Origin: Pseudomonadota bacterium
GTDB lineage: Bacteria; Pseudomonadota; Gammaproteobacteria; Steroidobacterales; Steroidobacteraceae
Reading direction: 5' to 3'
Length of the DNA stretch: 5,554 bases
Assembly: GCA_021792815.1 (NCBI GenBank)
Contig: JAJYTX010000227.1
Location: 1 to 5,554 of the forward strand
Shown: positions 2,430-5,554 of the stretch, one piece after another
Layout of the letters: every line of letters begins with the position of its first letter
How positions within the stretch are numbered: position 1 is the first letter of the stretch
Made by a program: the position numbers and the translations under genes
The notes under the pieces: generated by a model
The model's database searches: none
Seen by the model: the letters and a program-made list of their open reading frames with translations, nothing else
Told to the model about the DNA's origin: nothing

Positions 2430-3341
2430 GTGAGCGCACGCCTCGAAAGACTCAAAGGTTCCATCCCACCGCTGGTCACGCCGTTCCGCGACGGCGAAGT
2501 CGACTACGACGCTTACGCCCGTCTGGTCGAGTTCCAGATCCAGAACGGTTCGCACGGCGTACTGGTGAACGGCACCACCGCCGAGCCGTCGACACTCTCG
2601 ACCGACGAGCGCAACCGCCTGGTCGATATCGCCGTCCAGGTGGCGGGCGGGCGGATCCCGGTGGTCGCGGCCACGGGTTCGCAGTCCATGATGGAAACGC
2701 GGACGCTGACGGAACACGCCGCACGAGCCGGAGCCGATGCCCTGCTCATCGTCACGCCCTACTACATCCGCCCGCCGCAGCGCGGCCTCATCGCCTACTA
2801 CCTGGAACTCGCCTCGCTCACCAACCTGCCGTGGATGGTCTATCACATCCCGGGGCGGGCGGCTGTGAGCGTGACCATCGAGACGCTGAAGACGCTGCGC
2901 GAGCGCTCGCCGTCGTTCGTCGGCATGAAGCACGCGGTGAACGATCTGGGGCTGGTATCGGAATGCCATGCCGTGCTTGGCCCGGAATTCAAGATCTTTG
3001 TCGGGCTCGAAGAGCTCAGTTTTCCGATGATGACGGTGGGCGCGTGCGGCCTCATGAATGCCGTGGGGAACCTGCGGCCCCGGATCCTCGCCGAGCTGTG
3101 CGAGGCGGTATGGCGGGGGGACCTGGCGGGCGCACAGACGCTGCACCACCAGTTGTTCGAGATCAACCAGGCGGTGTTCTTCGACACCAACCCCATCCCG
3201 ATGAAATACATGATGCGGCGGCTGGGACTGCTGGCGCGCAACGAGCATCGTCTGCCAATGATGAGCGCGACGGCCGAGCTCGAGCGGCGCCTCGATGGGG
3301 TGCTCGAACGCGCCGGGCTGCTCGCGGAGGCGGCTGCGTGA
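2430..3341 (+). CDS. DapA/DHDPS-family class I pyruvate aldolase, candidate 4-hydroxy-2-oxoheptanedioate aldolase
   Basis: This 303-residue TIM-barrel protein of the dihydrodipicolinate synthase / N-acetylneuraminate lyase family begins SARLERLKGSIPPLVTPF from the GTG at 2430. Lys167 in FVGMKHA is the Schiff-base lysine. GTTAEPSTL (49-57) matches the GTTGES pyruvate loop, VTPYY (108-112) and VYHIPGR (137-143) supply Tyr138 and Arg143, equivalent to Tyr133 and Arg138 of E. coli DapA, and TNPIPMKY lies at 253-260. The family includes lysine-pathway DapA, sugar-acid aldolases and hydratase-aldolases such as NahE. Its position inside an hpa operon argues for catabolism: splitting 4-hydroxy-2-oxoheptanedioate into pyruvate and succinic semialdehyde, the job of HpaI elsewhere. 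A genuine DapA cannot be excluded. It overlaps the next gene by 4 nt (GTGA). The family is certain; the role is inference. Confidence 0.88.
   Translation: MSARLERLKGSIPPLVTPFRDGEVDYDAYARLVEFQIQNGSHGVLVNGTTAEPSTLSTDERNRLVDIAVQVAGGRIPVVAATGSQSMMETRTLTEHAARAGADALLIVTPYYIRPPQRGLIAYYLELASLTNLPWMVYHIPGRAAVSVTIETLKTLRERSPSFVGMKHAVNDLGLVSECHAVLGPEFKIFVGLEELSFPMMTVGACGLMNAVGNLRPRILAELCEAVWRGDLAGAQTLHHQLFEINQAVFFDTNPIPMKYMMRRLGLLARNEHRLPMMSATAELERRLDGVLERAGLLAEAAA
3326..3330 (+). promoter_or_regulatory. Ribosome binding site fixing the start of the HpaG-type gene
   Basis: GGAGG sits 7 nt before the GTG at 3338. The hpaG reading frame stays open far upstream (to about 2831) within the preceding gene, so this site and the GTGA overlap with the DapA-like stop decide the start. 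Confidence 0.75.
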
Positions 3342-4195
3342 GACTGATCAACTTCCAGGCCGGCGATCGGCGATCGTGCGGCGCGCTCGGACCCCGGGGC
3401 GTGATCGATCTCGGCGCGCGACTGGGGACGGACGCCGGTGACGTGCTGTCGTTGCTGCGGGCCGGGCTGATCGATCGGGCCCGGGCATGCGCCGCCTCCG
3501 ATCTCTGCGACTACGACCCGTCCGAGGTGCGGCTGCTCAACCCGGCGGGCCGCTGTACGCGCTACTTCTGCATCGGCGTCAACTATCCCGAGCGCAACGA
3601 AGAATACAAGGACGGCTCGGAGAAACCCAGGTATCCGAGCGTCTTCATGCGCTCGCACACCTCGTTCTCTGCTCCCGGCGAGCCGATCGTGCGCCCGCGG
3701 GAGTCCGAGCAGCTCGACTACGAGGGGGAGATCGCGCTGCTGATCGGCCGCGGCGGGCGCCGCATCCCGCAGGAGCAGGCGCTCGAGCACGTGTTCGGAT
3801 ACACCTGCGCCAACGAGGGCACGGTGCGCGACTGGGTGCGGCACGCCAAGTTCAATGTCACCCAGGGCAAGAATTTCGATCGTTCCGGATCTCTCGGTCC
3901 GCACATCGTGACCCGCGACGAAGTGGGCTCGGCGCCACTGCGCGTCATCACCCGCGTCAACGGCGAAGTGCGTCAGGACGATACCAGCGACCGGATGATG
4001 TTTTCGATTCCGTATCTGCTCAACTACCTGTCGCGCTTCTGTACGCTCGAACCCGGCGATATCATCCTGACCGGGACGCCGAGCGGTGCCGGGGCGCGGC
4101 TCGATCCACCGCGCTACCTGGTGCCGGGAGACAGGGTAGAGATCGAAATCCCGCGTGTCGGAGTGCTGCGCCACGAGGTGATCGATGAGCTCTAA
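3338..4195 (+). CDS. hpaG: Fumarylacetoacetate hydrolase-fold protein, probable OPET decarboxylase / HHDD isomerase (HpaG-type)
   Basis: This 285-residue protein has the FAH fold. An N-terminal domain of about 70 residues leads into the catalytic domain, with RYFCIGVNYPERNEEY (75-90), SVFMRSHTSF (101-110), LDYEGEIALLIG with metal ligands Glu129 and Glu131, CANEGTVRDW (158-166) where Glu160 takes the third-ligand position, KNFDRSGSLGP (178-188) and TGTPSGAG (245-252). In this pathway the enzyme decarboxylates OPET to 2-hydroxyhepta-2,4-diene-1,7-dioate and isomerises it to the 2-oxo form, using Mg or Mn. E. coli HpaG is a tandem fusion of two such domains; this one is a single unit, so it may do one reaction, act as a dimer for both, or have a partner elsewhere. 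The fold is certain. The substrate is inferred from hpaE, hpaF and hpaR, since other FAH members hydrolyse acylpyruvates. Confidence 0.82.
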   Translation: MRLINFQAGDRRSCGALGPRGVIDLGARLGTDAGDVLSLLRAGLIDRARACAASDLCDYDPSEVRLLNPAGRCTRYFCIGVNYPERNEEYKDGSEKPRYPSVFMRSHTSFSAPGEPIVRPRESEQLDYEGEIALLIGRGGRRIPQEQALEHVFGYTCANEGTVRDWVRHAKFNVTQGKNFDRSGSLGPHIVTRDEVGSAPLRVITRVNGEVRQDDTSDRMMFSIPYLLNYLSRFCTLEPGDIILTGTPSGAGARLDPPRYLVPGDRVEIEIPRVGVLRHEVIDEL

Positions 4196-4709
4196 ACGAC
4201 CGCCACTCGCACAGCGCTCGCTGCCCATGCGACCGTTCTCCGAGTCGCTGCCGATGGCGCTGCTGCGCACGCGCGAGGCGGTGATGCGGCTGTTTCGTCC
4301 CGGTCTGCGCAGCCGCGGTGTGACCGAGCAGCAGTGGCGGATCCTGCGGGCGCTTGCCCATCGCGGCCCGATGGAGGTCACCGAGCTCGCCGAAGAGACG
4401 TTTCTCCTCGCCCCCAGCCTCTCGCGCATTCTGCCCGACCTCGCCAAGCGCGGCCTGATCGGCCGACGCCAGGTGGACACGGATCTGCGCCGTTCGGTGG
4501 TGAGCCTGCAGACTGACGCTCTGCGCCTGATCGGCGAACACGCCCCGTATTCCGAACAGATGTATGCGCGCATCAGCAGGCGCTTCGGCCCGGAGAAGCT
4601 CGCTGAACTGCTGCGGCTGCTGCATGAGCTCGAGGTCTCGCTCGGCGAGCTCGCCCAGGAGCTCGACGCCCAGCCGATGGACGCCGACAGGCGGGCAAAT
4701 CAGCAATGA
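4185..4709 (+). CDS. hpaR: MarR-family homoprotocatechuate operon repressor HpaR
   Basis: This 174-residue winged-helix repressor has a segment SLPMALLRTREAVMRLFRPGLRSRGVTEQQWRILRALA (21-58, in part) that matches E. coli HpaR, which reads SLTIALLQAREAAMSYFRP then LTEQQWRI. The recognition helix region is VTELAEETFLLAPSLSRIL (65-83); the wing follows with DTDLRRSVVSL (98-108); the C-terminal helices (124-160) complete the dimerisation domain. It should bind DNA as a dimer and release it when the pathway's aromatic acid binds. GAGG (4175-4178) precedes the ATG at 4185, giving an 11-nt overlap with hpaG; the N-terminus is then about 20 residues longer than E. coli HpaR, and the ATG at 4227 is a shorter alternative. 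Being inside the operon, it would control its own synthesis through the 447-466 operator. Its last codons overlap the next gene (ATGA). Confidence 0.94.
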   Translation: MSSKRPPLAQRSLPMRPFSESLPMALLRTREAVMRLFRPGLRSRGVTEQQWRILRALAHRGPMEVTELAEETFLLAPSLSRILPDLAKRGLIGRRQVDTDLRRSVVSLQTDALRLIGEHAPYSEQMYARISRRFGPEKLAELLRLLHELEVSLGELAQELDAQPMDADRRANQQ

Positions 4710-5011
4710 GCCTGTATTACATCCAGAAGCTGATCTATCAGCTCAATCGCGACCCGGCGGTGCGCCGGCGGCTCGACGAAGATTTCGAAAGCCTGCTGGC
4801 GGAATATGAGCTGACCGAGGAAGAGCGCGCTGCGCTGCGCAAGCCGGACATCGGCCTGTTGTACGTGATGGGCGTCAACGGCCAGATCCTCATGCATTAT
4901 GCGGCACTGCGCGGCTACGAGTGGAACGCGTACATCGAGGCGATGCGCGAGGGCGAGCGCAAATACGGACCGGTGAGAACGGGCCTGTATACGCGGGCGG
5001 ATTCCCGCTGA
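4706..5011 (+). CDS. LigA-like small subunit of a class III extradiol dioxygenase
   Basis: This 101-residue protein is predicted to be mainly helical. The core, roughly residues 10-80, resembles the LigA (protocatechuate 4,5-dioxygenase alpha subunit) domain: NRDPAVRRRLDEDFESLL, then the hallmark ELTEEERAALRKPDIGLL, and GVNGQILMHYAALRGYEW, corresponding to the small-subunit segment that caps the active site of the catalytic partner. It has no iron ligands of its own. In LigAB enzymes this subunit closes over the beta-subunit cleft and contributes to substrate binding. It is followed 31 nt later by a LigB-type catalytic gene, supporting the pairing. The ATG overlaps the hpaR stop (ATGA) with only a weak AGG-type ribosome site, so translation probably depends on coupling. 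The LigA similarity is by motif recognition and is moderate; the function is inferred from the neighbour. Confidence 0.75.
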   Translation: MSLYYIQKLIYQLNRDPAVRRRLDEDFESLLAEYELTEEERAALRKPDIGLLYVMGVNGQILMHYAALRGYEWNAYIEAMREGERKYGPVRTGLYTRADSR

Positions 5012-5042
5012 GGGCCGGCACGGCCGACCGAGGGTTTTGATC

Positions 5043-5554
5043 ATGGCATTGGTTTTCGCGGGTGTTTGTTCACATGCGCCGGGCATCACCGGACGCGCGG
5101 AGCGCGCCGATCCCGAGGCGCGTGACACCTTTTATGCGGCGCTGCGCCGGATGCGCGAGGCGCTCGAAGCATCCCGGCCCGACGCCCTGGTGGTGATCGC
5201 GGCGGAGCATTTCGCCAACTTCTTCATGAATAACATGCCGGCGATCTGCGTCGGCATGGCCGAGCACTACGACGGGCCGATCGAGGACGAGAACTGGCTC
5301 GGCATCCAGCGGCACCGCGTCCCGGGGAACAAGTCGCTGTCGCGCGATCTCATCCAGGAGATCATGCACGACATCGACCTCGCCTACGCCGAGGAGTGGA
5401 AATTCGACCACGGCATCATGGTGCCGCTGAACTTCCTGACCCCCCGGTACGATCTGCCCGTCATTCCCGTCAACATCAACTGCCAGGGGCCGCCGCTCAT
5501 CCCGGTCGGGCGCGCCTACGAGTTCGGCCGGGCGCTGCGGCGCGCGTGCGATGC
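5043..5554 (+). CDS. LigB-type class III extradiol ring-cleavage dioxygenase, catalytic subunit (3' end outside window)
   Basis: The ATG at 5043 follows GAGGG (5030-5034) by 8 nt; 170 codons are visible before the window ends. The start FAGVCSHAPGITGR places His11 where LigB has iron ligand His12. VIAAEHFANFFMNNMPAICVG (51-71, in part) supplies the second ligand, His56, in the family's DH..NFF..NMP motif, and WKFDHGIMVPLNF (His123) matches the conserved FDHG..VPL motif with its active-site histidine. The third ligand, a glutamate, and the acid/base histidine lie past the edge. These Fe(II) enzymes insert O2 next to a catechol diol; here the likely substrate is homoprotocatechuate, giving CHMS for HpaE. 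It looks closer to LigB/gallate-type enzymes than to E. coli HpaD, so the gene name is withheld. The family is firm; the substrate is inferred from context. Confidence 0.87.
   Translation, partial: MALVFAGVCSHAPGITGRAERADPEARDTFYAALRRMREALEASRPDALVVIAAEHFANFFMNNMPAICVGMAEHYDGPIEDENWLGIQRHRVPGNKSLSRDLIQEIMHDIDLAYAEEWKFDHGIMVPLNFLTPRYDLPVIPVNINCQGPPLIPVGRAYEFGRALRRACD

Follow-up and report, generated by a model that had tools for sequence, protein, structure and literature searches.

We propose that DapL, a DapA-like protein encoded in a bacterial hpa operon, completes the 4-hydroxyphenylacetate/homoprotocatechuate pathway as a class I aldolase and hydratase. We use the name for the DapA-like class I aldolase encoded at positions 2430–3341 of the window (the whole stretch of 5,554 nucleotides analysed here) and for its relatives. 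DapL very probably performs the aldolase step in place of HpaI. As to the hydratase step in place of HpaH, which rests on the absence of HpaH, we lean towards assigning it to DapL as well. We infer both reactions and the mechanism from sequence, and consider the reading as a whole likely.

The hpa operon of the window

The window carries a compact operon, all on the forward strand. It opens with the 3′ part of a gene for an HpaC-like flavin reductase domain (23–379; PF01613, 62 bits), whose frame is open at the 5′ end of the window. This is followed by hpaF, encoding 5-carboxymethyl-2-hydroxymuconate isomerase (488–895; PF02962, 150 bits; 41% identity to E. coli HpaF), and, with a 4-base overlap, by hpaE, encoding CHMS dehydrogenase (892–2409; TIGR02299, 776 bits with a cut-off of 638). 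The DapL gene (2430–3341) starts with GTG, 7 bases downstream of an AGGAG (2418–2422) that we read as its likely ribosome-binding site, and encodes 303 amino acids matching PF00701 (DHDPS) with 256 bits; its product is a candidate 4-hydroxy-2-oxoheptanedioate aldolase and probable 2-oxohept-3-ene-dioate hydratase. Its stop codon overlaps the GTG start (GTGA) of the gene for a single-domain, HpaG-like FAH protein (3338–4195; PF01557, 231 bits in a scan from 3341). Downstream lie hpaR, encoding a MarR-family regulator (4185–4709, the longest frame with a provisional start; TIGR02337, 146 bits, cut-off 121), and the genes for the LigA-type small subunit of a ring-cleavage dioxygenase (4706–5011; PF07746, 47 bits) and for the LigB-type catalytic subunit of the presumed homoprotocatechuate 2,3-dioxygenase (5037–5552, cut by the window end; PF02900, 75 bits). 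The short overlaps between neighbouring genes (hpaF–hpaE, DapL–FAH, FAH–hpaR and hpaR–ligA, a few bases each) suggest one transcript.

The sequence-only reading of this DNA had described a class I aldolase with Lys167, Tyr138 and Arg143, and both the family match and the residues bear this out. It had also placed the gene between hpaE and hpaG. The location holds; the hpaG in question encodes a single FAH-domain protein rather than the fused two-domain HpaG of E. coli, and matches the HpaG domain models below their cut-offs (TIGR02303, 151 vs 276 bits). As it had further stated, HpaH and HpaI are missing from the window: tblastn with the E. coli proteins gave no match there at E≤0.01. A stretch of 5.5 kb is too short to establish absence by itself, and the wider set of loci described below bears on this point.

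As stand-ins for the window's own genome, we used the two loci L003 and L004 (92% and 91% identical, respectively). The nearest one, L003, has the same gene set with HpaB ahead of it (TIGR02309, 654 bits, cut-off 480), followed by the HpaC-like flavin reductase gene. Since an HpaB over its cut-off precedes the same set in L003, the starting compound of the pathway is most likely 4-hydroxyphenylacetate. In the window, the place of an HpaD of the E. coli type is taken by a LigAB-type dioxygenase (4706–5552), which has a small LigA subunit of its own. At the thresholds set, LigB matches were found near 50 of 80 DapL relatives and HpaD matches near 10; LigB matches also occur in some clusters with both HpaH and HpaI (L203, L204, L206 and L207, from the family of the genome carrying locus L014).

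Family assignment of DapL

The window protein belongs to the DHDPS superfamily by its PF00701 score (256 bits vs a threshold of 22) and its catalytic Lys-Tyr pair. PF00701 is its sole Pfam match, and the HpaI/HpcH model TIGR02311 is absent from its seven NCBIfam matches. The best-scoring of these is TIGR02313, named ‘HpaI-NOT-DapA’, at 288.5 bits, under the cut-off of 396.7; six further DapL proteins score 271–304 bits on it. We rejected this match as stand-alone proof, because the cut-off is missed and ordinary DapA proteins reach up to 304 bits on the same model. The cut-off was passed by none of the 398 sampled genomes from the phylum of the L014 genome, and was passed by the controls Thermus composti and Deinobacterium chartae.

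The window protein also passes TIGR00674, the model of lysine-pathway DapA (258 bits, cut-off 206.15). TIGR02313 exceeds TIGR00674 by 16 to 53 bits in all seven DapL proteins scanned and falls below it by 53 to 193 bits in all six ordinary DapA proteins, separating DapL from DapA in all 13. The named relatives among the protein matches listed are called 4-hydroxy-tetrahydrodipicolinate synthase, and the organisms given are Steroidobacteraceae bins. Among PDB fold matches, the best 50 listed are all entries of the DHDPS type. A predicted DapL structure has a mean pLDDT of 80.9 and a pTM of 0.85; its residues 193–208, near the active site, have pLDDT values below 50, too low for a reading of the pocket shape.

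Linkage of DapL to hpa genes

We searched for relatives by scanning one genome per species with the peptide patterns IP[MI]KYMM and VNGTTAEP. This gave 185 confirmed DapL relatives, of which the best 80 were kept with flanks of up to 10 kb, many of them shorter: 43 loci reach 7 kb or more upstream and 5 kb or more downstream, and 37 have short flanks. At the set thresholds, these best 80 of 185 loci contain matches to HpaE in 66, HpaF in 67, FAH in 68 and HpaR in 57 cases; by the first and third of these counts (66/80 and 68/80), DapL shares with TIGR02313 the clustering with hpa genes. Among the 43 long-flanked loci, HpaE is present in 39. The record titles of the DapL loci name Gamma- and Alphaproteobacteria, Acidobacteria, Eremiobacterota and Acidimicrobiia.

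In 68 of the 80 loci, DapL has an FAH gene on its own strand no more than 600 bases away, downstream in 66 and upstream in two. The hpaE gene is mostly on the opposite strand just upstream of DapL (49 of the 69 loci with a match). Gene order therefore varies between lineages and the linkage stays, as would be expected if the genes are functionally tied. Some DapL relatives sit outside hpa clusters. Three of them, in L080, L082 and L260 (genome G296), are about 68% identical and have no hpa genes nearby; L080 and L082 are also without a cupin match, and L080 lies near a gene resembling those for molybdopterin S/N-oxide reductases.

Absence of HpaH and HpaI

With the E. coli proteins as tblastn queries (E≤1e-5), none of the 80 DapL loci, 37 of them short-flanked, gave a match to HpaH or HpaI. 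As a control, we took a sample anchored on hpaE, drawn regardless of the aldolase, in 398, 274 and 60 genomes from the phylum, class and family, respectively, of the L014 genome. We opened 63 clusters with HpaE over its cut-off, including L003 for genome G001 and leaving out genome G013, where HpaE is at the contig start; HpaH and HpaI were sought with the queries used for the 80 loci, and DapL was called at 300 bits. HpaH and HpaI together were found in 35 clusters, HpaH alone in 12, DapL alone in 6 and none of the three in 10. Thus, HpaH or HpaI occurs in 0 of 6 clusters with DapL vs 47 of 57 without it (Fisher p 1e-4, for clusters that are related and hence not independent). Of the 60 genomes from the family of the L014 genome, 13 encode HpaE; the clusters of these 13 comprise six with DapL only, six with HpaH and HpaI, and one at a contig end. 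L164, which has HpaH and HpaI, contains a weak DapA-family match (100 bits, 28%) under the DapL threshold.

The checks proposed in the sequence-only reading, a search of the flanks for hpaH and hpaI and a survey for mutual exclusion of hpaI and this gene, thus turned out in its favour: the flanks of the 80 loci yielded neither gene, and the 63 clusters yielded no co-occurrence with DapL. A complete hpaH and hpaI beside DapL, the arrangement it took as counting against it, was seen neither in the 80 loci nor in the six hpaE-anchored clusters with DapL. As 10 of the 63 hpa clusters contain neither HpaH nor HpaI nor DapL, a cluster without these genes need not lack the step. Six of the hpaE-bearing stretches without an HpaH, HpaI or DapL match (L153, L157, L158, L165, L186 and L190) are 19.5 kb long.

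We then extended the comparison to whole genomes. Among 50 DapL genomes, HpaH was at or over its cut-off in two, matched below the cut-off only in 23, and had no family match at E≤1e-3 in 25. No HpaI exceeded its cut-off, which may miss divergent HpaI, and an HpcH/HpaI-family match at E≤1e-20 was present in 31. These genomes are mostly metagenome bins, in which gene absences may reflect incompleteness.

In the two genomes with HpaH at or over the cut-off (G005 and G724), it adjoins an HpaI-like gene whose score falls slightly short of the HpaI cut-off. Both pairs lie outside any hpa cluster (L245, 7689–10187, on contig C131 of G005; L246, on contig C158 of G724). The G005 pair follows an intradiol (chloro)catechol dioxygenase-like gene, an unusual pairing, and adjoins a 3-dehydroshikimate dehydratase-like gene with a shikimate dehydrogenase-like gene also beside it, a set resembling quinate/shikimate breakdown. 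Because of these neighbours, the G005 pair probably serves another pathway, which is still compatible with help in trans. In nine plasmid hpa clusters, five of them from Deinococcus, HpaH and an HpaI-family gene are present in seven and neither in two, and no DapA is annotated in the stretches examined.

Conserved and altered residues of DapL

To compare residues, we aligned two sets. The first consists of 82 DapL sequences, taken from the window, L001, L235 and 79 of the 80 loci; the second consists of 29 ordinary DapA sequences, namely those of 28 of 30 phylum-sample loci and of E. coli. L235, which is a DapL, and L216, a short match, were left out of the latter set; L074, with an in-frame stop in its match, was dropped from the residue counts and kept in the motif counts. 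DapL T49, T50, Y112, Y138, R143, K167 and N254 correspond to E. coli DapA T44, T45, Y107, Y133, R138, K161 and N248, respectively. Thr49, Tyr138, Arg143, Lys167 and Asn254 are invariant in all 82; Tyr112 is Tyr in 77 and Phe in five, and Thr50 is Thr in 76 and Ser in six. The earlier equation of Arg143 with the DapA arginine that binds the semialdehyde carboxylate was therefore correct, as the residue aligns with R138 and is kept throughout.

The lysine feedback site is changed. Its E. coli residues S48, H56 and N80 are replaced by P, R and Q, respectively, in 82 of 82 DapL sequences; because one of the two scan patterns covers the S48 position, the count there is partly selected, and the other changed positions lie outside both patterns. 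The equivalents of the lysine-site residues E84 and Y106 are retained (E in 77 of 82, Y in 82 of 82). Further changes from E. coli DapA seen in all 82 are N134 to H, D187-D188 to L-E and I203-S204-V205 to M-N-A. With the catalytic and carboxylate-binding residues kept and lysine-site residues replaced, DapL is predicted to have kept the means to form the pyruvate imine and to hold the carboxylate, with partial changes in both the feedback site and the acceptor pocket. Lysine-insensitive true DapA proteins also exist. In the motif counts, 81 of 81 DapL sequences contain YHIPGR, 73 GTT[AS]EP and 70 KHAV (in the pattern used); the 29 DapA-type loci listed carry GTTGE[SA] and YN[VI]P[GS]R instead.

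Proposed reaction

Crystals of DapA from E. coli (PDB 4EOU) and Ca. Liberibacter (8GEK) contain condensed pyruvate and succinic semialdehyde bound to the lysine, the carboxylate of the adduct being held by Arg138 and, in E. coli, Asn248, as passages of PMC11201819 describe. This adduct is the imine of 4-hydroxy-2-oxoheptanedioate, the substrate of HpaI. DapA is thus already able to form this bond in the forward direction, because the crystals hold that adduct.

DapL would be a pyruvate-releasing, metal-free class I (Schiff-base) aldolase of the 4-hydroxyphenylacetate/homoprotocatechuate pathway. The C7 diacid would be bound through its C2 ketone as an imine of Lys167, its far carboxylate being gripped by Arg143 and Asn254, and retro-aldol cleavage between C3 and C4 would give succinic semialdehyde and pyruvate. 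This would be the reverse of the DapA-type condensation and would replace the class II HpaI. NahE and PhdJ combine hydration and retro-aldol cleavage of a 2-oxo-3-enoate, with aromatic substrates. In the manner of such hydratase-aldolases, the C3=C4 bond of 2-oxohept-3-ene-1,7-dioate would probably be hydrated on the same lysine imine before cleavage; we suggest that DapL hydrates first because HpaH is missing together with HpaI from the 80 loci, and has no family match in 25 of the 50 genomes. The superfamily includes a hydratase-aldolase as well as the C4 dehydratases KdgD and KdaD, according to PMC13398020. The hydratase step of A. baumannii requires Mn2+ (PMC12718150), and HpcH is a class II aldolase that depends on metal (PMC7610986), so that the DapL route would be the metal-free one in both steps. 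The central proposal of the sequence-only reading, that a DapA-family class I enzyme takes the place of HpaI, is supported by the linkage, the exclusion of HpaH and HpaI, the residues and the DapA crystal chemistry.

Alternative explanations

DapL might replace HpaI only, with hydration left to the adjacent FAH protein, an unlinked hydratase or a non-enzymatic reaction. HpaH has an FAH-like fold, 25 of the 50 genomes have HpaH-family matches (23 sub-cut-off, two at or over it), and the name of TIGR02313 covers the aldolase alone. In the other 25 genomes, however, nothing matches the HpaH family at E≤1e-3, and the clusters of Ruegeria, Aminobacter and Pannonibacter with a single annotated FAH gene retain a separate hpaH, which argues that a lone FAH gene normally does not cover hydration. 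We regard this division of labour as possible but unlikely. An alternative in which HpaH and HpaI encoded at other genomic sites supply both activities in trans, DapL catalysing a side reaction, is improbable. The pairs in G005 and G724 and the HpcH/HpaI-family matches in 31 of 50 genomes (E≤1e-20) are consistent with it, but HpaI is over its cut-off in 0 of 50 genomes and HpaH at or over it in only two, the intradiol-dioxygenase-like and shikimate-type neighbours of the G005 pair point elsewhere, and nothing would explain why DapL is linked to FAH in loci whose names span several phyla.

It is more improbable still that DapL is an ordinary lysine-pathway DapA that entered the operon by chance. 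NCBIfam cut-off rules do fit dapA (TIGR00674, 258 vs 206 bits), as do the names of the listed relatives. A separate TIGR00674 match of at least 288 bits, stronger than DapL itself, is nevertheless present in 37 of the 50 genomes. Thirteen are without one, eight of which show one DapA-family match only (E≤1e-40); many of the 13 are small bins, and the missing DapA likely reflects incomplete bins, although DapL may have a lysine role there. Against a chance placement also stand the lysine-site residues replaced in 82 of 82 sequences, the many fixed differences from DapA and the conserved hpa linkage.

Relatives next to cupin genes

In L040, L044, L058, L071, L072 and L001, a DapL relative directly follows a two-cupin gene, and no hpa genes are present in the stretch examined. 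The sites are 3–740 of L040 and 13836–15882 of L001; in the other four loci, the cupin gene is just upstream of DapL. L001 is from Paraburkholderia largidicola; its DapL relative is about 67% identical and annotated hpaI_2. For the cupins of L001, L044 and L071, the best models are gentisate 1,2-dioxygenase and 5-aminosalicylate 1,2-dioxygenase, with scores far under the cut-offs. Because dioxygenases of these types open hydroxybenzoates to unsaturated C7 oxo-diacids, the same type of enzyme could act on closely similar C7 skeletons in the cupin setting. In L071, a second, distant DHDPS-family gene (2935–3858) lies directly downstream of the cupin–DapL pair.

In the tree, the 82 DapL sequences form one clade (support 0.81). 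Five cupin-linked loci group together (0.99) beside the hpa group, which has a support of 0.67 of its own, and L001 and L235 branch lower, where supports are 0.67–0.78. In this tree, loci carried the hpa label unless they were listed as cupin or as lacking hpa genes, a default that also took in short contigs; the order of recruitment, with the cupin setting before the hpa setting, is therefore a suggestion only. We give an even chance to a broader account, in which one metal-free, DapA-derived enzyme stands in for the two metal-dependent enzymes HpaH and HpaI, using a single lysine for both steps on the C7 enone diacid, was recruited from an older gentisate-type dioxygenase setting with a similar unsaturated C7 diacid, and is found across several phyla under the mistaken name dapA.

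Implications and comparison with known systems

If the proposal is true, a group of proteins now named dapA would receive a corrected name, and the apparent gap in DapL-bearing 4-hydroxyphenylacetate clusters would be closed. DapL would also be a clean example of a biosynthetic aldolase working in reverse, and an enzyme that both hydrates and cleaves an aliphatic diacid would be useful in biocatalysis. YHIPGR separates DapL from the ordinary DapA proteins compared here and offers a possible annotation rule.

E. coli DapA (b2478) shares with DapL the fold, the catalytic lysine and tyrosine, and the equivalents of Arg138 and Asn248. It is 32% identical, and its S48, H56, N80, D187-D188 and I203-S204-V205 are replaced in DapL. 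HpaI/HpcH shares the proposed reaction and the place in the pathway; it belongs to another family, is metal-dependent according to part of PMC7610986, and never occurs together with DapL in the clusters examined. NahE and PhdJ are of the same superfamily, whose members according to PMC13398020 include the hydratase-aldolase.

The closest precedent is TIGR02313 (2,4-dihydroxyhept-2-ene-1,7-dioic acid aldolase), which, like DapL, is a DapA-family protein for the HpaI step in an hpa setting. Its published comment reportedly makes the same argument as the sequence-only reading, that the HpaI substrate is the DapA product skeleton without the amino group. The window DapL fails its cut-off (288.5 vs 396.7 bits). 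Our searches of the open-access literature returned no recognisable paper characterising a DapA-family HpaI or the DapL clade, and no experimental test. The idea of a DapA-like HpaI is thus already known in database form, as NCBIfam TIGR02313; what is added here is the DapL clade, the joint loss of HpaH and HpaI, the residue signature and the cupin setting.
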